IMG/VR virus record: IMGVR_UViG_3300028397_000007
Location: 1-33,425 of that record
Reading direction: 5' to 3' (one strand)
From: a virus
DNA length: 33,425 nucleotides
This document shows, one piece after another, positions 4,970 through 23,553 of this stretch. Position numbers and translations under genes: made by a program. The notes beneath the pieces are model-generated. The model was not told where the DNA came from. It saw nothing but the letters and a program-made list of their open reading frames with translations, and did not search any database. Every line of letters starts with the position of its first letter. The first letter of the stretch is position 1.

Positions 4970-6394
4970 TTATAAACCTTTTGGTATGCCGTTAACGTCA
5001 TGGGTTTTTCCGTATGTAATATCCCACCATTCAGCCTCAGTAACTTTTCTTTTAATACTAGGAATTCTTACTCCAAACTGATTTCTAGCTACTACTTCTC
5101 TTGTCTTTTCTCCACCTGCAGGAGGTTTTGGTGGTGCAATAATAACCTTTCCTGTTTCAGGATTTACCTTACCTTCATACTTTCTATCCCATTCTCCCTT
5201 GCCACTCAGACCACGTTTACTCTTTCTTTTTGGGAAAGTTTTAGCAAGTAACGCTTCTTTTTGAGCTTCTGTATTGGGCGCTTCCGCTTCGGAACTTTCT
5301 TGGAACTGACTGTCTTCGATTCTGTCTGCTGGTTTAGATCTTCGTTCAAACTCTTCCATTCCAAGTTGTATTGATTGTTCTTCTTGCGTTGGGACAATAG
5401 GTTCTCCTTCTGATTGTTCATCATCGTCATCTTTAAATATAGATCTTTGCTCTGCTAGAAAATCTTTTCCTAATATCTTTTCAACTAAATCTGTAGAAAC
5501 TTTACTATCAAAGAAACCTCCTCTACCATATTTACCAATAGCTCCTATTACTAGCGGAGTTACAGCATCTTTTGCCACCCTTCTTCTGGCTTCTCTTTCT
5601 ACTTGTGCTAGGATTTCTGGAGAAAGTTCTTTACCGTCTGCTGCGTCAATGGCTGCATTCTTTGCAATTTGTACTATATCATCTGCTGCTCTGTTACCTG
5701 CTTGAGAAGTAGCTGCTGCATCAGTAAAGTCTTTTATAAACTCACTCGTGTCTTCAGGTCCATAAAACTCTACATCAAGTAAAGACATACCTAGCTCTGG
5801 AAATATAGACGTGTACTCAGACTGTGCTGCTAGATCGTTTATATCTGCTATACTCAAGTCACCCATATACTGTTCTTGTCTTAGTCTATTCCTAGCTTTC
5901 TTCATATCGTTTACACGGAATAGATTTCCTAAACTAAAGCTACTACCTGTGTCTTCCATTTGGGAAGCACTAGCAGGATCAACACCATATGTTCTATTAG
6001 CAAACTCTTGTAAGCTGTAGTCTACATAGCTGTCATTAATCTTAGGCATTGTACTAGGTAGGTTTATCAAACCTTCAATATCATCATTACTTAAAGTTCT
6101 TACGCCTCTTTCATTAGCCGCTTCTTTTAGTTGATTATAAAAATCTTCAATGCCTCTATATCCAGATGACATAGCAGCCTCTACCTGATAACGTTTAGCT
6201 CCTAAACCCATAGCTTGGTTTGCTAAAGTGTAGGCATTGTTGGCGTTTTTCATTCTTGATCTAAACAAAGGAGCGTTACGTGCAGCCATTTCTCTTCTGC
6301 GCTCTTCGTAGTCTTCCGCTTTCTTTTGTCTTTCATCAATGCCCTCGCCTAGACCATCTAGGAAGCTAGACCCGAATGATTGTAAAAATGACAT
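4970..6394 (-). CDS. Putative internal virion protein, 474 aa
   Basis: The product has 474 residues and begins MSFLQSFGSSFLDGLGEGI, a glycine/serine amphipathic N terminus common in phage internal proteins. A charged helical region follows (KKAEDYEERRREMAARN). The middle (about 140-280) is acidic and Ala-rich. The C-terminal third is low-complexity and basic/Pro-rich (PKRKSKRG, then PPKPPAGGEK). No enzymatic motif is seen. It starts 4 bases after the upstream stop with AAGGG ahead of the ATG, and ends 5 bases before the 1123-aa gene. Its place suggests an ejected core component, but the family is not recognised with certainty. Confidence 0.6.
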   Translation of the reverse strand: MSFLQSFGSSFLDGLGEGIDERQKKAEDYEERRREMAARNAPLFRSRMKNANNAYTLANQAMGLGAKRYQVEAAMSSGYRGIEDFYNQLKEAANERGVRTLSNDDIEGLINLPSTMPKINDSYVDYSLQEFANRTYGVDPASASQMEDTGSSFSLGNLFRVNDMKKARNRLRQEQYMGDLSIADINDLAAQSEYTSIFPELGMSLLDVEFYGPEDTSEFIKDFTDAAATSQAGNRAADDIVQIAKNAAIDAADGKELSPEILAQVEREARRRVAKDAVTPLVIGAIGKYGRGGFFDSKVSTDLVEKILGKDFLAEQRSIFKDDDDEQSEGEPIVPTQEEQSIQLGMEEFERRSKPADRIEDSQFQESSEAEAPNTEAQKEALLAKTFPKRKSKRGLSGKGEWDRKYEGKVNPETGKVIIAPPKPPAGGEKTREVVARNQFGVRIPSIKRKVTEAEWWDITYGKTHDVNGIPKGL

Positions 6395-11344: not shown

Positions 11345-11593
11345 TTATTTCCCTATTTGCATCCAAAGTGATGCGGCAATGAATGTTATTACTGCTACTG
11401 TTGACATCTTAACCATAGTTGACCACACACCTTTACGTGTATCACGCCATGCTTCTAGTAAGTTACGCATTTCTGTTATGTCTTTACGAGCATCGTCATC
11501 ATGCAGTCCTACTTCACGCAATGCCATCTTAGCACCACGCTTTGCTGCGCGATCTAGCATGGCTTCTAATTCTTCTGGTGTAATATTAGACAT
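11345..11593 (-). CDS. Small C-terminally anchored protein (DUF6127-like)
   Basis: The 82 residues consist of a charged amphipathic helix (EELEAMLDRAAKRGAKMAL), an LHDDDARKDITEMRNLL segment, an EAWRDTRKG segment and a C-terminal membrane span (about 62-80, STVAVITFIAASLWM). It resembles the small phage family annotated as DUF6127, often found among late genes and sometimes near lysis genes. It could be a holin-like or virion membrane peptide. It overlaps the 3' end of the upstream gene by 8 bases. Confidence 0.6.
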   Translation of the reverse strand: MSNITPEELEAMLDRAAKRGAKMALREVGLHDDDARKDITEMRNLLEAWRDTRKGVWSTMVKMSTVAVITFIAASLWMQIGK

Positions 11594-11993
11594 AACCAGA
11601 CATATCCTCGTTTGTTATAGGTATTGCTTTTTCCTTATCATAATAGTTATTTACCTCTAACCATCTAGCATAAGAAGTTTTAATATTACTAACTATAATA
11701 CCAGCTTCAGCGCGTGATAAGTTTGTATGATTGTCACCATCATGTACTGCATACACATTATATCTTGTGTCAGAATCATCTAAAGATAAAATTTGTGTAT
11801 CATTTAATGCGTCACCATACTCATGGGCAACAATAGTTTCGCCATCAATAACTAATGTTGTTTGTTTTATAGAAGGTTTAACAACACACCATTTTGTTGG
11901 AAGAGTATCTAATTCTACTTTTATTTTTGAGGCAGCATTAGCAACCTCTGTTTCTGTTTCGTAATATTTTTGTGCATAAAGAAATTTAGTCAT
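11586..11993 (-). CDS. Hypothetical 135-aa protein beside glycine-rich adhesin
   Basis: The 135 residues include an N-terminal helix region, a beta segment (VKPSIKQTTLVIDGETIVAHEY) and a helical end. No signal peptide, membrane span or enzymatic motif is seen. Its ATG overlaps the adhesin's stop (TAATG at 11993), and it overlaps the next gene by 8 bases. Small genes directly after adhesins are often assembly chaperones or adhesin partners. That role is inferred from position only, and the family is not recognised. Confidence 0.55.
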   Translation of the reverse strand: MTKFLYAQKYYETETEVANAASKIKVELDTLPTKWCVVKPSIKQTTLVIDGETIVAHEYGDALNDTQILSLDDSDTRYNVYAVHDGDNHTNLSRAEAGIIVSNIKTSYARWLEVNNYYDKEKAIPITNEDMSGYV

Positions 11994-13018
11994 TATGTTG
12001 ATCCGTAAATTGTACCATTATTTACAAGTGTTCTTGATGTTCCTGTTATAGCTGCTCCACCTGAACCAAGAAAGTATCCACCTTGACCAGCCCCACCAGA
12101 TGCTCCCCATCCACCGCCACCGCCACTAACATTAGTTACACCACCACCAACACCATTACCTGCTGCTCCTGCAGATCCACCGTTTGCAGTTGTTCCGCTT
12201 AGTCCATTACCACCGCCAACTCCTGGAAGGATTTTGCCGCCACCTCCACCGCCAACGCCCCCATTGTTGTTTGCATAATTCAAGATGCTATCACCGCCAC
12301 CGCCAGCGCCTCCACCTAGACCACCCACTGCGTCAGAACCATTACCAGTACCATTGCCCCCAGTTCCATTTACATTTCCTGCAGAACCACCACCAACACC
12401 AGTTGCGCCACCACGACCACCTAGACCGCCCCCAGCACCGCCACCTCCTCCTGCGTTTACGTAGTGAGCAGATCCGTGAGTTCCTGAGTTATCATAGCCA
12501 ACAGCACCACCACCACCGCCACCTGCAATAAAGCCAGAACTTTGATTTATTATTGTAACACCGCTTGAAGTTACATTAATAGCTGTTTCACCATTGCCCC
12601 CACTAGAAGGATTCATAAAAGAGGGGTATCCATACGATCCACCCTTACCACCTTTTCCAATTATACGACCTTCATTAATTATAGTACATGGTATATCTAT
12701 TATTAAAGCGTTGCCACTACTACCACCTTGTATATATGTATCGGACGGTATTCTAAGAGTCATACCTGAACTAAAGCCAGAAATAGAAGAAACAGTTATA
12801 TTTGCTTGGTATTTATATCCATTCTGTGGACCAAAAGCTGCAGCAAAAACAAGTTCGTTAGCCTTACCATGAAAGTTTGACAACGATATAGCACCAGAAG
12901 ATACTCCTGCCAAAGATCTCATATCAGAGTCATTCATTGAAACTGCAGAGCCACTTGAAGCTCCTAATTCTATGTGACATTGGTTTAGTGATATAGTACC
13001 ACTAGCTGGTAGTGCCAT
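11993..13018 (-). CDS. Polyglycine-rich tail adhesin, 341 aa
   Basis: The first 55 residues are a module shared with the 13502-14296 gene: a short beta strand, HIELG, SSG, MNDSDMRSL and SSGAISLSNFHGK. Residues about 60-115 form a beta domain. From about 120 to 335 the protein is dominated by glycine runs (GGGGGG, GGAGGGG, GGVGGGGGG) separated by short loops. This pattern resembles the stacked polyglycine II helices of T-even gp38 receptor-binding adhesins, where the loops between glycine runs contact the receptor. A receptor-binding role is therefore likely but inferred. The gene overlaps both neighbours by one base (TAATG). Confidence 0.75.
   Translation of the reverse strand: MALPASGTISLNQCHIELGASSGSAVSMNDSDMRSLAGVSSGAISLSNFHGKANELVFAAAFGPQNGYKYQANITVSSISGFSSGMTLRIPSDTYIQGGSSGNALIIDIPCTIINEGRIIGKGGKGGSYGYPSFMNPSSGGNGETAINVTSSGVTIINQSSGFIAGGGGGGAVGYDNSGTHGSAHYVNAGGGGGAGGGLGGRGGATGVGGGSAGNVNGTGGNGTGNGSDAVGGLGGGAGGGGDSILNYANNNGGVGGGGGGKILPGVGGGNGLSGTTANGGSAGAAGNGVGGGVTNVSGGGGGWGASGGAGQGGYFLGSGGAAITGTSRTLVNNGTIYGST
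12040..12600 (-). repeat. Glycine-codon repeat tract in adhesin gene
   Basis: On the + strand this stretch is packed with CCACCG, CCGCCA and CCACCA units, the complement of GGN glycine codons. The repeats are imperfect and interrupted by short unique segments encoding the loops. Such tracts can change by slippage or recombination, which would swap adhesin loops. Confidence 0.7.
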
Positions 13019-13488
13019 TATCTACTCTCATTGTATGTTTTGTTAGGGTCTAGTGTTTTACTAAGCTTGCCGTAAACACTATTAAATTCTGGGTTAGATG
13101 TACTGAGTTTGAATCTTTCATTTAACTCACAACGAGCATCCCATAGAGGTTGAAAACTAGCTTGTACCATAGGGTTTTTAGAACCTACAACAGCAGTCTC
13201 ATTATTGTGGTATCTTTCATAGACTAAATCCCATTGCCACTCTACCCAGTTCATAGGAATCAAATCACCATGCATAGTAAAGAATAGTAGGTTAGCGTCA
13301 CGTTCTCTATTTTGTGCTTGAACTATTTCTGTGTAACCTATATTACCATGTGGGTTTCTTACGTCATAGATAGCTTCATCGTTGTTATTAATTGTAGGAA
13401 TTATCTTTAAACCTCTAGGGATAGGTCTGCCAAAAGAATCATACTGTTGTAAGTTCTCTCGCTTAACCTTTTCGATATCCCATTCCAT
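13018..13488 (-). CDS. Hypothetical 156-aa protein between two adhesins
   Basis: The product is soluble-looking, rich in Asn, Tyr and Trp, with SFGRPIPRGL near the start and a Trp-rich stretch (MNWVEWQWDLVYERYH) in the middle. No membrane span or signal is seen. An AGAGGA site precedes the ATG, and its stop overlaps the polyglycine adhesin's start (TAATG). Because it sits between two adhesin genes, a fibre-assembly or adhesin-maturation role is possible, but nothing in the sequence identifies one. Confidence 0.55.
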   Translation of the reverse strand: MEWDIEKVKRENLQQYDSFGRPIPRGLKIIPTINNNDEAIYDVRNPHGNIGYTEIVQAQNRERDANLLFFTMHGDLIPMNWVEWQWDLVYERYHNNETAVVGSKNPMVQASFQPLWDARCELNERFKLSTSNPEFNSVYGKLSKTLDPNKTYNESR

Positions 13489-13501
13489 TACTTATTATCC
13501 T

Positions 13502-14296
13502 CTAGTGAATATAGTAAGCTGCTGTACCTGCTGCATTCCCACCAATAAACTTCAGCGTTAGACTTGAAGGATATAAGCTAGATGGCTTGTCTCCTGGGTC
13601 AAGATAACATCCCCAAAGTTTAGTTCCGTAGGAGTTACTAGCCCAATTAGCACCAATACCACTACCTGGGAAGTTGTTTTCAAAACGTGCATAACCATTG
13701 TAGTTATGGTCTGCTGTACATCTGTGAGCTGTGTTTGTGTTTGAATAATGACAAAACAACCTAATGCCCAAGCCAGTATCAACATGTGTAGTAAAGCCCC
13801 CACCTGGAAGATTCGTGATGTTAAAACTACCAGATGGTTTACCTGTTCCACCATCAGAAAAACCCCAACCACCAATGTCATACAAATAGCGTTGTCCACC
13901 ATAAGTGACATCGACTATGTTAGCGGCATTCTTAACATAATAAGTTGTGTGCGTATGGGTATGTCCACCATAATCGGTAAGGGCTGCTCTTGAAGTGTGT
14001 GTGCCATACGTAGTTCCAGAAGTGCCAATGTAGTTATTAAGGTTACTTATATGATTTCCTGTGTAGGACTGCCAAAGTATTTCAGAACCTGATGCTGAAC
14101 CAAAGGAAGTAATTGTAGTTGTAGGATCTGCACTAGCACCGTACCATTCATTAAACGACATACTAGCTCCCGAAGATTTTCCTAACAAGTCACGAATATC
14201 TGCGTCATTAAGGCTACAAGTAGTGCCTGAACTACCACCTGCTTCTATGTGAATTTCGTTTAAGCTTAATGAAGACGGACTAGTTGGCAGAGTCAT
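13502..14296 (-). CDS. Tail adhesin/fibre tip with HxHxH motif, 264 aa
   Basis: The N-terminal 50 residues (SLNEIHIEAGGSSG, LNDADIRDLLGKSSG, NEWYGA) are the same module as in the polyglycine adhesin at 11993-13018. The remainder is Gly/Ser/Thr/Tyr-rich and predicted beta, with GGHTHTHTTYYV (H112, H114, H116), a pattern like the HxH sites that bind iron along trimeric fibre tips such as T4 gp37. Several Trp and aromatic residues near the C terminus suit glycan contact. Its start lies inside the 3' end of the S74 fibre gene (17-base overlap), with only a weak AAAG site, so translation is probably coupled. Confidence 0.65.
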   Translation of the reverse strand: MTLPTSPSSLSLNEIHIEAGGSSGTTCSLNDADIRDLLGKSSGASMSFNEWYGASADPTTTITSFGSASGSEILWQSYTGNHISNLNNYIGTSGTTYGTHTSRAALTDYGGHTHTHTTYYVKNAANIVDVTYGGQRYLYDIGGWGFSDGGTGKPSGSFNITNLPGGGFTTHVDTGLGIRLFCHYSNTNTAHRCTADHNYNGYARFENNFPGSGIGANWASNSYGTKLWGCYLDPGDKPSSLYPSSLTLKFIGGNAAGTAAYYIH

Positions 14297-15155
14297 TCTT
14301 TAGACTTTCAACTTCAGCTTTTAATTCTTTTACAGCTTCAATTAATACACCTACTAAGTTACCGTATGCTACAGATAGATACTCACCCTCTTCCACAACC
14401 TCTGACATAACTTGTTGCATCTCTTGAGCTATAACACCTGTGCCACGATGTCCGTCTTTGTCATACATAACACCACGCATCTGTGATACTTTGTCTAGCG
14501 CACCTTCAATAGTTTCTACGTTTTCTTTTAGTCTTTCATCTGAGTAAGCTGTGACGTTACCTGATGCGGTAAAGTTTCCAGTGAAGGAGCCTGACATAGC
14601 AAAAGTTGTTCCTGATAGTGATAGACCATTACCAGCACCGTATGTTGTATTAGTATCCGTTGGAACAGCCCATGTAAATGTACCATCCCCATCTGAACGT
14701 AAGAACTGTGTATTAGAACCATTTCCACTAACATTAAGTTCACTAGCACCCACAGCATTAGCTGCTATCTCGCTTGCCCCAACTGCATCAGCTGCTATTT
14801 GAGATGCAGTTACTGAATTTGCAGATAGTGGTATAGATGCGGCCCCTGACACATTTAAATCTCCTGTTAGTGTCAAATCCCCTTGGATGAAAGCATTTTT
14901 AAATTTTAATGCACTTGTACCTAAGTCTACAGTATTATTAGTTTTAGGTCTAAGTACAGATGCTGTCACAACTATATCCTGCGATGGCCCTATCTTTTCA
15001 ATAGGAGCGCCCTCTGCTGCAGTACCATCATGGGTATGACCAGTACTAGCGTTGAATGCTGATTGTACCTGATTGTACTCATCGTTAAAATCATCAGCGT
15101 CAATAACACTTCCTGTAGTAATATTACCTGCTGCCTGTCTTGTATAACCTGCCAT
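14280..15155 (-). CDS. Tail fibre with S74 self-cleaving chaperone domain, 291 aa
   Basis: Residues 1-50 (GYTRQAAGNITTGSVIDADDF, then NASTGHTHDGTAAEG) are a typical virion-anchoring or proximal fibre module. A central beta/repeat section includes two near-identical units (QIAADAVGASE and EIAANAVGASE). The C terminus is a peptidase S74 intramolecular chaperone: YSDERLKEN with the catalytic pair S205/K210, then GVIAQEMQQV, the NLVGVLIEAVKEL helix and a coiled-coil end. S74 domains trimerise the fibre and then cut themselves off just before the Ser. It ends inside the next adhesin gene and follows the nozzle gene with 2 bases between. Confidence 0.85.
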   Translation of the reverse strand: MAGYTRQAAGNITTGSVIDADDFNDEYNQVQSAFNASTGHTHDGTAAEGAPIEKIGPSQDIVVTASVLRPKTNNTVDLGTSALKFKNAFIQGDLTLTGDLNVSGAASIPLSANSVTASQIAADAVGASEIAANAVGASELNVSGNGSNTQFLRSDGDGTFTWAVPTDTNTTYGAGNGLSLSGTTFAMSGSFTGNFTASGNVTAYSDERLKENVETIEGALDKVSQMRGVMYDKDGHRGTGVIAQEMQQVMSEVVEEGEYLSVAYGNLVGVLIEAVKELKAEVESLKNDSAN

Positions 15156-20443: not shown

Positions 20444-20908
20444 TTATGAAATCCTTACGAATAAACTTTGATATTTATTTTGTCTTACTGTAAGCATGTT
20501 TCTATATGTTCCTGAATACCCAGTTGCTCCTGCATGAGCATAATTACTTCCTGAACCTGATCCAGCAGGGTTATAGAGAGTATTATGTGAGGGTTCGTTT
20601 AAACCCTGCCTATAATGTAAAGTAGACGATTCATAAGCACACCCTAATAGGCTTGCTGCAATAGTTCCACCTGCTGCCACAGTAAAATTAGTATCATAGA
20701 CATTTTGCGTAGAACCAGCAGGATGCTTAAGAATACTTGCCCAAGTATAAACCCCTACTTTAGCATATAACAGCGCATCTGCCGGGCCACTATCAGTGAT
20801 ATTACCAGAACCCAAAATGCTGTTTCCGTCCAATGTTTTAAAACTATTTGCATTGTTTTGTATGCCATTAGAATCTAAAACTGTTGTGCCGTTTATCTGA
20901 AACCCCAT
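20444..20908 (-). CDS. Mini-fibre/adhesin paralogue 3, 154 aa
   Basis: This is the third of three tandem small proteins sharing an M[GA]FQ[VI]NG start. After it comes KTLDGNSILGSGNI, a module familiar from phage fibres, then VGVYTWA and a Gly/Ser/Tyr-rich beta body. It ends QSLFVRIS, like its neighbours. No enzymatic motif is seen. AGGA lies 8 bases before the ATG, which overlaps the preceding stop (TAATG). Likely a receptor-binding or fibre-accessory protein, inferred from composition and position. Confidence 0.6.
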   Translation of the reverse strand: MGFQINGTTVLDSNGIQNNANSFKTLDGNSILGSGNITDSGPADALLYAKVGVYTWASILKHPAGSTQNVYDTNFTVAAGGTIAASLLGCAYESSTLHYRQGLNEPSHNTLYNPAGSGSGSNYAHAGATGYSGTYRNMLTVRQNKYQSLFVRIS

Positions 20909-21306
20909 TATGAGATCCTAGCCCAAAGTATATTCATATGTTTACCTGCAGTGGTGTCAAATGCTTGGTGACTAATAGAGCGCCATGTTCCAGATTGAGC
21001 ATAAGAAGTTAAGTCAGAAGTGGCATGACCATATGATGTATCCCAAGAACAATGTCTTCCACTTATTATTAAAACCATCAGTGTTGACCCTGCAGTAGTT
21101 GCTCCTGCATTAAAATTATTGCTGCCTGTTGAAGTAGAACTGTGTTGCATGGTGTAAGTACCAACAGCACCATAAGTTGTAGGTCTGATGTATTTCATAT
21201 CACCAGAACCCACTATGCTAAAACCATTTACTGTTTTAGGAAAAGCACCAGATTGAAAGTTTCTTGAGCCATCTATAACTGCTGTTCCGTTTACTTGAAA
21301 AGCCAT
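20908..21306 (-). CDS. Mini-fibre/adhesin paralogue 2, 132 aa
   Basis: The shortest of the three paralogues. It begins MAFQVNGTAVID, continues with KTVNGFSIVGSGDMK and VGTYT, and ends MNILWARIS. The body differs strongly from its neighbours between these shared ends, as expected for adhesins that exchange or diversify the exposed part. It overlaps the preceding stop by one base (TAATG), with only a weak GAGAG site, so coupled translation is likely. Confidence 0.6.
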   Translation of the reverse strand: MAFQVNGTAVIDGSRNFQSGAFPKTVNGFSIVGSGDMKYIRPTTYGAVGTYTMQHSSTSTGSNNFNAGATTAGSTLMVLIISGRHCSWDTSYGHATSDLTSYAQSGTWRSISHQAFDTTAGKHMNILWARIS

Positions 21307-21815
21307 TATGAAACTCTCATGTATATACTACTAGGAAAATAACTACCTCTGTCCATGTAATTAGCTATGGGTGTCCAACTACCAGAAAAATTGCTAACAT
21401 AATTACTGCCACTCAACTGCGAACTACCAAACCAACCGTTTGATATTCTCCAATTAGATTCACTTAATGGATAAGCGCCATAATTAAATATTTTGATGTA
21501 ATCTCTAATAGAAGAACCCGGCCCAGTGGTGGTGGGTGCAAGACCTGAATACCCTGATTGGGTATTAGTTGGTCCAAGAAATAGTGGCCCAAAACTATTT
21601 GCAGGAGTTGCTGTATAACTGCTTAGACCATCAATAGCGATACCAAATGCGATACTACCTACGGAGTTACGAGTAGTACCAAAAGTTCCAACAGCAGACG
21701 TATTAGTGGTCATCGAGCCTGTACCTGTCATGGCATTGCCTTGTCCAGTTTTTAAACCTTGAGTGAAGTGTCCACTATTGTTTACCCACTCAACACCGTT
21801 AACTTGAAAGCCCAT
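21306..21815 (-). CDS. Mini-fibre/adhesin paralogue 1, 169 aa
   Basis: The first of the three paralogues after the large S74 fibre. It starts MGFQVNGVEWVNN, has GNAMTGTGSM where the others have G(N/F)SI-GSG, and VGTFG in place of VGTYT, and ends SSIYMRVS. The middle is Ser/Gly/Asn/Trp-rich and predicted beta. Its start lies within the last 17 bases of the S74 fibre gene, with AAAGGA 9 bases upstream, so production is tied to that fibre. Confidence 0.6.
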   Translation of the reverse strand: MGFQVNGVEWVNNSGHFTQGLKTGQGNAMTGTGSMTTNTSAVGTFGTTRNSVGSIAFGIAIDGLSSYTATPANSFGPLFLGPTNTQSGYSGLAPTTTGPGSSIRDYIKIFNYGAYPLSESNWRISNGWFGSSQLSGSNYVSNFSGSWTPIANYMDRGSYFPSSIYMRVS

Positions 21816-23553
21816 TCAACCTATCCTTTAGTTTGTTGATTTGGTCTTGTTGGCCTTTGACTGCTTCAATAAGTACACCGACTAGGTTGTTGTAGCTTAC
21901 TGACTTCTTACCTTCTTCATCTGTGTTAACTGCGTTGGGCAGGACTTGTTCTACATCTTGAGCTAATACACCTTCGGCACTACCTTCGTTATTTTTCCAG
22001 TCAAAAGAAACACCTGTTATTTTCTTTAGAATAGATAGTGGGTTTTCTATTGGTGCAATATTTGTTTTTAAAGTTGCGTCTGAAGTAGCGTTAAAAACAC
22101 TAGCTGTACACGTTCCAGTTATAGTCGCACCACTTGATGTAGTCTCAAACTTTTTAGAGTTGTTGTGGTAAAGTTCTACGGCTCCATCTTTATAAAACCT
22201 AGCCATATCTTCGGATAAATCACCTTTTCTTAAAACTATTTCATCCGCAGCTATTAAAAGCCTTCTAGTGCTTACTTGTTCTTGAATAACACTATCTGTT
22301 CCATTGTGGTAAATCTGTAGGTCATGTCCTGTGCCAAAACGTGCTGTTACATTGTCGTTAAAATCAATTCCTGCGGTGGTAAGATGAGAGTCAACGTCAC
22401 TATTTGAATACCCTGCAGGAGGAGTTGCCCAAGTTAAGCCACCTGTATTTCCTGACTGTGCTGAAAGGAAGTATCCGTTAGTAGGTGTATTACTTACTTT
22501 TAGATTAGCCTCATCAACTACATTATCTGCAATAACTGTTGCACCATCAGCAGAGCTTGTAACCTCGCCACTATGGTTAGGGTGAACATAGTTGTTAGCA
22601 CTTGCGGCTATGCCGTCAAGCTTGGCCCCATCAGTAGCCACATCCCTACCATCAAACGTGGAGCTAGTAGTAATAGCACCTGTAAAAGCAGCACCAGTTA
22701 GACTAGCTAAAGGTATCCAAGCACCACCGTGAGCATAGTAAGCTAAACCTGTAGCGTGTACGTGAGCAAACATACCATGATAGGTTGATGCGCTGGGTAA
22801 GTCTGACAGTTGAGCATACAAGTTAGCAAATAAAACTTTGTTTCCGTTGCCATCAATATCACCAGACATTGTACCGCCAGACTTTGGTAAAGCATTACCT
22901 GCCAAAGTACCTTGCGCTGCTGTCGCATAATCGGCTGCATCAAACGCTTTAACATCACTCAAGTTACTGACTTCAGAATCCATTAAGGCTCCTGCAGCAG
23001 CTACATTGGTGGAATCAGTTACATCTGCAGATGCTTCTATTCCATTAAGTTTTGTGTGATCAGCATCAGTAAACACGTTACTATCTGATGCGCTTTCAAC
23101 TAAGGTTCTTATCTCTGCTGCTGTTTGATCTGCTGTTGCACTGGCTTCTATTCCATCGAGCTTAGTTCCATCAGCAGCTAAATCTCTACCATCTACAGTG
23201 CCACCAACAGTTATATTATTTCCTATGGCAACATTATTTGAAGCATCCTCGAACATAGCTTTAGCAGCAGGAAGTGTAACGAAAATGTCTTTTTGACCTG
23301 AACTCCAAGATACTGGATTATTGCTATTTGAACTTGTTAGAATAGTTGTACGTGCAAGTGTAGTACCAGAAGCTGTGTATGTACCAATTCCTACCTCAAA
23401 ATTAGTACCATCAGTGCAAGCATAATATGTTGTATTTCCATTACCAACACCAGCAAAACTAGCAAAACCTGATTTAGCCCCTGCTAGTGTATATGTGCCT
23501 GTGCCAGTAGTGTTTGTCGTTTCTTGAACTCTATCAACAACAATAAGAGCCAT
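21799..23553 (-). CDS. Tail fibre with S74 self-cleaving chaperone domain, 584 aa
   Basis: The N-terminal ~120 residues (VVDRVQETTNTTGTGTYTL, FEVGIGTYT, WSSGQKDIFVTLPA) match a common phage fibre module. Then come helical/beta repeats with three DGR(D)-A-x-DG-x-KLDGI type units and a related KLNGIEASA unit. A carbohydrate-binding-like beta region precedes the C-terminal peptidase S74 domain: SDATLKTNI with S491/K496, GVLAQDVEQVLP, the NLVGVLIEAVK helix and a coiled-coil tail. The S74 domain trimerises the fibre and then releases itself. AGGAG lies 7 bases before the ATG. It precedes three mini-fibres. Confidence 0.85.
   Translation of the reverse strand: MALIVVDRVQETTNTTGTGTYTLAGAKSGFASFAGVGNGNTTYYACTDGTNFEVGIGTYTASGTTLARTTILTSSNSNNPVSWSSGQKDIFVTLPAAKAMFEDASNNVAIGNNITVGGTVDGRDLAADGTKLDGIEASATADQTAAEIRTLVESASDSNVFTDADHTKLNGIEASADVTDSTNVAAAGALMDSEVSNLSDVKAFDAADYATAAQGTLAGNALPKSGGTMSGDIDGNGNKVLFANLYAQLSDLPSASTYHGMFAHVHATGLAYYAHGGAWIPLASLTGAAFTGAITTSSTFDGRDVATDGAKLDGIAASANNYVHPNHSGEVTSSADGATVIADNVVDEANLKVSNTPTNGYFLSAQSGNTGGLTWATPPAGYSNSDVDSHLTTAGIDFNDNVTARFGTGHDLQIYHNGTDSVIQEQVSTRRLLIAADEIVLRKGDLSEDMARFYKDGAVELYHNNSKKFETTSSGATITGTCTASVFNATSDATLKTNIAPIENPLSILKKITGVSFDWKNNEGSAEGVLAQDVEQVLPNAVNTDEEGKKSVSYNNLVGVLIEAVKGQQDQINKLKDRLNGLSS

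Follow-up and report, generated by a model that had tools for sequence, protein, structure and literature searches.

A gp38-type glycine-rich head on a widespread N-terminal repeat module: a probable fibre-tip adhesin in an HMO-2011-type phage

It is already known that T-even phages carry a gp38 head and that glycine lattices are found on other anchors. The gp38 of phage S16, according to its structural description (PMC6851490), is a monomer docked on trimeric gp37 by three helices set 120 degrees apart, and its beta-helix bears two glycine-rich turns of 18 and 77 residues. A glycine lattice with a variable tip on a different anchor has been reported for Pam3 gp24 and for TFP_Y of a Klebsiella phage (PMC9608196, PMC12671077). 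In mycobacteriophages and in phage LSH1, polyglycine 'brush' domains are presented as binding domains, rich in glycine, that a tail protein carries (PMC13243795). Two further sources place glycine-rich adhesins in haloarchaeal viruses (PMC8651126) and Gp38 adhesins among the genes of marine phage islands (PMC3909814).

The window analysed here, which is the whole stretch of 33,425 nucleotides of IMG/VR record IMGVR_UViG_3300028397_000007, encodes a 341-residue protein that is quite probably a three-part receptor-binding tip adhesin, composed of a fibre-tip anchor, a gp38-type beta-helix, and polyglycine II insertions presenting loops that contact the host. The features discussed below, in window coordinates, are the following:

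11345 to 11593, minus strand: DUF6127 protein, conserved border of the cassette
11586 to 11993, minus strand: 135-residue protein immediately downstream of the adhesin
11993 to 13018, minus strand: coding sequence of the probable tip adhesin, 341 residues
11996 to 12061, minus strand: residues 320-341, strands predicted to close the beta-helix
12062 to 12523, minus strand: second glycine-rich insertion and hypervariable loops, residues 166-319 (approximate borders)
12524 to 12859, minus strand: gp38-type beta-helix, as predicted, residues 54-165, with the first glycine-rich insertion within it
12584 to 12658, minus strand: first glycine-rich insertion, residues 121-145 (approximate borders)
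12860 to 13018, minus strand: anchor module, residues 1-53, with an internal repeat (a motif of about 17 residues present three times)
13018 to 13488, minus strand: 156-residue protein between the two tip proteins, without a family match
13502 to 14296, minus strand: second putative tip protein, 264 residues, with the same anchor and a different head that is not glycine-rich
14280 to 15155, minus strand: tail fibre with a C-terminal S74 chaperone (Peptidase_S74, E 8.3e-15)

The adhesin gene is real. It runs from 13018 to 11993 on the minus strand, the plus-strand frame being full of stops, and the identical protein is encoded by four other viral contigs (L001-L004), which at the DNA level share 99.93-100% identity with the window and show zero differences within the gene. 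Positions 11993-13018 had been given correctly in the initial annotation, from which the strand was absent. Glycine accounts for 105 of the 341 residues and for 72 of the 150 between residues 160 and 309, and 13 glycine-rich runs, plainly above chance, extend from residue 121 to 321; the approximately 215 glycine-dense residues proposed earlier are close to the approximately 200 counted here (121-320). The N-terminal module read as HIELG...SSGAISLSNFHGK is likewise present, as residues 1-53.

The phage belongs to the HMO-2011 type, a group of podoviruses; its portal shares 84% identity with the portal of Roseobacter phage CRP-207 and 65% with that of HMO-2011. A comparison taking in 28-30 kb of each of six isolates (CRP-207, CRP-2, CRP-603, HMO-2011, CRP-9, and CRP-13) found counterparts of the major capsid, portal, and tail proteins in all six, and of the DUF6127 protein, with 65-71% identity, in five. 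Just the first 92-118 residues of the fibre (15155..14280) are common to the six isolates, and these 28-30 kb stretches contain nothing that corresponds to the four proteins between 11586 and 14296. This combination of unshared genes and conserved flanks indicates that the adhesin belongs to a host-recognition cassette that has been exchanged between conserved borders. In CRP-207, the nearest isolated relative, gp54 (L206:17604-20633) is a long protein with a glycine-rich end, 48% identical over 100 residues; it carries no anchor and lies elsewhere in the structural region.

Within the cassette, the stop of the fibre gene overlaps the start of the second tip protein gene (14296..13502) by 17 nt. 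The glycine-rich adhesin comes third behind the fibre, not immediately next to it. The anchor module occurs twice in the window, the second copy being 45% identical over residues 1-69. No relatives of the second tip head were found in the fetched loci, nor any of the 156-residue protein other than copies from the same phage. Relatives of the 135-residue protein lie directly behind the glycine-rich adhesins of L053 (the same contig as L120) and L181, and this protein may help assembly. In Morganella phage vB_Mm5 (L205:172-1768), two tandem genes annotated as receptor-recognizing protein lie behind one fibre gene, an arrangement like that of the window's pair of tip proteins. The window also encodes, at 20444-23553, a second S74-type fibre (23553..21799), behind which, again with a 17-nt overlap, lie three small tandem proteins (21815..21306, 21306..20908, and 20908..20444); these three have in common a different N-terminus, which is MGFQVNG-like and may represent a second type of plug.

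Residues 54-341 constitute a head homologous to T-even gp38. Taken alone, the window protein matches no Pfam family (PF05268 GP38 is not found up to E 1) and no PDB sequence, so the homology rests on its relatives, which were aligned as a set of nine proteins with 41-56% identity to the window protein (A2) and a set of 32 (A3) gathered from viral contigs. The A3 profile finds, among PDB sequences, S16 gp38 at E 1.7e-5 and PP01 gp38 at E 0.0094; an unrelated fusion protein is placed between them (E 0.00055, over 40 positions), and four further entries follow at E 0.16-0.92. Alignment with hhalign to eight gp38s (A5) gave a probability of 97.3% and E 1.8e-11, rising to 98.9% with 31 relatives. 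The segment that precedes the first long run of glycines matches gp38 without the remainder (79.7%, E 1.5e-5), and the glycine-rich half taken alone reaches 65%. The score of the body against gp38 is 73; 40 column shuffles reached 18.8 at most, and in the same comparison a different type of glycine-rich body gave 3.8%. Moreover, nine of the 32 relatives match PF05268, one of them (L022) above the gathering score (27 versus 25), and 16 match phrog_2056, 'host specificity'. Bodies of this kind are also met without the anchor: one ends a 1033-residue open frame with a subtilase domain (L115:1-3099; Peptidase_S8, E 2.3e-18), and two gp38-like glycine-rich bodies lie on a single contig (L113:2859-3888 and 5071-6031).

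The AlphaFold2 model of the full protein, built with 31 sequences (pLDDT 74.5, pTM 0.74), points to the same family. With 0.001 as the E limit, Foldseek returned PP01 and S16 gp38 chains as the sole PDB matches (E 6.2e-8 to 2.3e-4), with TM-scores of 0.39-0.40 on model length, and some of the matches in BFVD bear the name Gp38 or Gp38 domain-containing. In VIA-align, which aligned model residues 53/54 to 341 on gp38 with long stretches under pLDDT 60 left out, S16 gp38 (6F45) scored Z 18.9 (2.3 Å over 184 residues) and PP01 gp38 Z 18.3, the next entry standing at Z 9.6. The entry 6F45 was released in August 2018, and the training cut-off of AlphaFold2 precedes that release. Predicted strands flank two glycine-rich stretches of approximately 25 and 154 residues, and the glycine runs may pack as polyglycine II helices. 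The description of the protein as a gp38-like polyglycine adhesin is supported by profile, hhalign, and fold matches, the packing being putative. The initial annotation also suggested that the protein may have taken up this mode of binding independently, and these matches do not support that view: an independent origin of the glycine head was rejected on the A3 profile, hhalign, and VIA-align results, and, the head being detectably homologous to gp38, the binding idea is shared by descent.

Among the relatives, the anchor, the beta-helix, and the glycine motifs are conserved, whereas the loops are hypervariable. Mean pairwise identity in A2, with region borders set by hand on the alignment, is 0.69 for the anchor, 0.48 for residues 54-128, 0.75 for residues 143-171, and 0.66 for the C-terminal end, and three glycine motifs keep 0.66-0.85 against 0.07-0.33 for the loops. 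The pair L022/L023 illustrates this trend, its successive 30-column blocks being 100, 83, 97, 87, 37, 83, 33, 43, 30, 33, 33, 47, 83, and 100% identical; the trend recurs more weakly in L129/L130 and L128/L153. Ten pairs were compared in this way, with a truncated partner in three, and the loops hardly vary in two of them (L054/L062 and L105/L107). Between the window and the four contigs that make up its own population with it, the gene is invariant. A comparison of loops among related phages had been suggested at the outset, and its outcome, variable loops on a conserved scaffold with conserved glycine motifs, supports the adhesin; the reverse pattern, named beforehand as speaking against it, was not seen.

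Residues 1-53 match PHROG 26746 (E 8.9e-12) and PHROG 26817 (E 1.1e-8), both listed as of unknown function; a set of 87 anchors gave no match in NCBIfam and one stray match in Pfam (E 0.0059). The anchor is not peculiar to the window phage, and is a widespread module: it was found in 32 phage records among those searched and, in viral contigs, in 72 loci in one search and in 80 retained out of 141 in another, among the matches listed. Of 238 pattern stretches in bacterial genomes, none was confirmed. As had been noticed initially, this module differs from that of T-even gp38, with no similarity to the gp38 attachment domain. Kinship between the two was considered and, as far as the sequences indicate, appears unlikely, since only the last 8-14 residues align, with a score within that of column shuffles.

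Shifted by about 17 residues, the anchor can be aligned to its own sequence, which yields three copies of an SGxISLxx motif. Over the whole module, the repeat score of the 87 anchors is 16.6 and was reached by none of 500 column shuffles (maximum 10.5); 12 anchors from named phages score 20.7, again above all 500 shuffles. Four EFG-type anchors also exceed all 500, with two copies aligning only, while nine EFGRGN-type anchors are not significant (101 of 500 shuffles), and neither an S74 control (266 of 500) nor the attachment domain of gp38 itself (141 of 500) shows a repeat. A segment-wise version gave 4, 0, and 4 of 2000 shuffles, for segments that, unlike the whole module, were picked after looking. 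Modelled by itself with AlphaFold2, the anchor forms three short helices (pLDDT 77.1, pTM 0.56), and in the full model its confidence is low (blocks 49-68). Foldseek found two PDB entries for this model, both at E above 5, and VIA-align none at Z of at least 2 among 12 chains; such poor matches do not demonstrate a new fold. The threefold repeat, set beside the S16 gp38 monomer that sits on the gp37 trimer through three helices, suggests a pseudo-threefold plug that would seat one adhesin on a trimeric fibre tip.

Gene order points to the fibre as the partner. The anchor starts genes right behind annotated fibre genes in Vibrio phages PhiImVa-1 and BUCT194, in EniLVp02, in Rhizobium phage Pasto, and in Pseudomonas phage Milchi, and lies behind a protein with an S74-type start in Alteromonas phage AD45-P4, HTVC008M, PSTNGR1, and Cygsa01; in nt-1, ValKK3, and 1.081.O no annotated fibre gene is adjacent. 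From 183 open reading frames, 136 anchor proteins were left after removal of window-phage copies, anchors above E 1e-3, and near-duplicates, and 119 of them remained once 17 with an unusable upstream frame were set aside. Among the matches listed, 94 of these 119 genes overlap the upstream frame or begin at most 4 nt from its stop, and the upstream protein carries S74 in 67, the other 52 having no S74 match at E 1e-3. A fibre-tip motif ahead of the S74 cut fitted 41 of 65 fibres in its first pattern and 63 after the pattern was widened post hoc; the first pattern also fitted 20 of 52 S74-like frames that are not directly upstream, an impure control that includes duplicates of those fibres, others separated by a single gene, and chance matches.

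The heads borne by the 136 non-redundant anchor proteins comprise, among the matches listed, 41 of the gp38-type glycine class, 14 that are glycine-rich on another scaffold, and 79 others in 36 clusters, two proteins being cut; these shares are biased, because the set, itself drawn from the matches listed, was partly gathered with glycine-rich queries. At least two anchor genes were found in five of 130 loci, many of which are fragments, again among the matches listed. Heads and anchors are exchanged, as seen in L023/L094, where two anchor blocks are 47 and 37% identical and the next two 93% each. In Providencia phage PSTNGR1 (L014:4001-4954), the body of the anchor protein contains, by eye, a Hint/intein-like segment (FTEDCLVLMADGS...). 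As judged by sequence, the head is from the same family as T-even gp38, and the anchor is a module used by many phages for many heads.

According to the mechanism proposed for the window, the trimer of the upstream-encoded fibre would fold with its S74 chaperone, which would then cut itself off, and the anchor (residues 1-53) would dock on the freed end of the trimeric fibre, one adhesin per fibre by means of its repeats. Residues 54-165 and 320-341 would form the gp38-type beta-helix, the insertions at approximately 121-145 and 166-319 would stack as polyglycine II helices, and the hypervariable loops would contact the host surface; the two anchor-bearing tip proteins of the window may share fibres. 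We infer from the data above the polyglycine II packing, the S74 cleavage, the trimeric fibre, the docking of one adhesin through the repeats, and the recognition of a receptor.

Other accounts of the protein have been weighed. The most plausible of them, though still unlikely, is that the anchor binds elsewhere than on the tip of the upstream-encoded fibre, for example on the tail or on the window's second S74 fibre (23553..21799). Attachment is deduced from gene order only, and some anchor genes (nt-1, ValKK3, 1.081.O) lie away from annotated fibre genes. Nevertheless, 94 of 119 anchor genes lie within 4 nt of the preceding gene and S74 precedes 67 of them, among the matches listed, and the second fibre has three small proteins of its own with a different common N-terminus. 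The module genes occupy the usual position of fibre chaperones, and transient caps are described for Alteromonas phages (PMC10579305), which would suit an assembly chaperone or a cap absent from the mature virion, as with T4 gp38 or the V22/A5 chaperones. We consider this improbable, given a head of the gp38 adhesin type with no chaperone match in Pfam, PDB profile, Foldseek, or VIA-align searches, hypervariable loops on a conserved scaffold that suit receptor contact better, the great diversity of heads, and a fibre that already has its own S74 chaperone.

It has also been considered that the glycine lattice arose separately and that the likeness to gp38 is one of composition only. The single sequence finds no gp38, and lattices do exist on other scaffolds, such as that of Pam3 gp24 (PMC9608196). 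However, the beta-helix ahead of the long glycine runs by itself matches gp38 (79.7%, E 1.5e-5), no such match is given by column shuffles or by the other type of glycine-rich body, and PF05268 in nine of 32 relatives is accompanied by a fold match at Z 18.9, so that convergence, already disfavoured, is very improbable.

The reading of the protein as a tip adhesin anchored on the upstream-encoded fibre may be extended to a more general one, to which we give slightly less than an even chance. The 53-residue module could be a general plug, in which tandem copies of the motif of about 17 residues (three in most sets) seat a single adhesin on a threefold, S74-processed fibre tip, a second answer to the monomer-on-trimer problem beside gp38's three tryptophans. 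This plug would serve gp38-type heads, other glycine-rich heads, and dozens of others in unrelated phages. A pair of plug proteins with different heads, such as the window encodes, could share the fibres of one virion and thereby address two receptors. If this is right, the anchor would be a sequence tag by which receptor-binding tip proteins can be recognised in phages that lack a cultured host, abundant marine groups among them; heads and anchors would be seen to have a natural point of exchange, the gp38 head would not be confined to T-even phages, and the 53-residue plug with its fibre tip would offer a small system for studying how one adhesin docks on a trimer. In the literature searched, through listings and passages, no description was found of the anchor, its repeat, or its pairing with gp38-type heads.

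The window adhesin resembles the gp38 of S16 (PDB 6F45), PP01 (PDB 9V85), and T2 in its homologous head, a beta-helix with two glycine-rich insertions, in its conserved glycine motifs and hypervariable loops, and in a gene located behind an S74-type fibre gene. The insertions measure approximately 25 and 154 residues, compared with the 18 and 77 given for S16 gp38 in PMC6851490. The attachment domain of gp38 is N-terminal, with three helices and three conserved tryptophans, and no such domain was found in the window adhesin; in contrast to gp38, its 53 N-terminal residues have no detectable similarity to that domain and contain no tryptophan. Pam3 gp24 and TFP_Y differ by their TNF-like scaffold and helical trimer anchor; the window head has no profile similarity (2.0%) to glycine-rich bodies judged TNF-like by eye, and Pam3 gp24 is absent among the 11 Foldseek entries for the model, an absence that excludes nothing. 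The 'brush' domains sit on the tail hub, whereas the window adhesin is a separate protein, probably of the fibre tip. The closest counterpart is CPT_Pasto_053 of Rhizobium phage Pasto (L009), annotated as 'hypothetical protein', which has the same anchor and a glycine-rich body, is encoded directly behind the fibre gene, and is one of the 32 rows in the profile that finds gp38. Pasto belongs to a different phage group, the Autographiviridae, and the body of its protein is just about 25% glycine; with CPT_Pasto_053, the combination of this anchor with a glycine-rich head is already in the public record, under no functional name.
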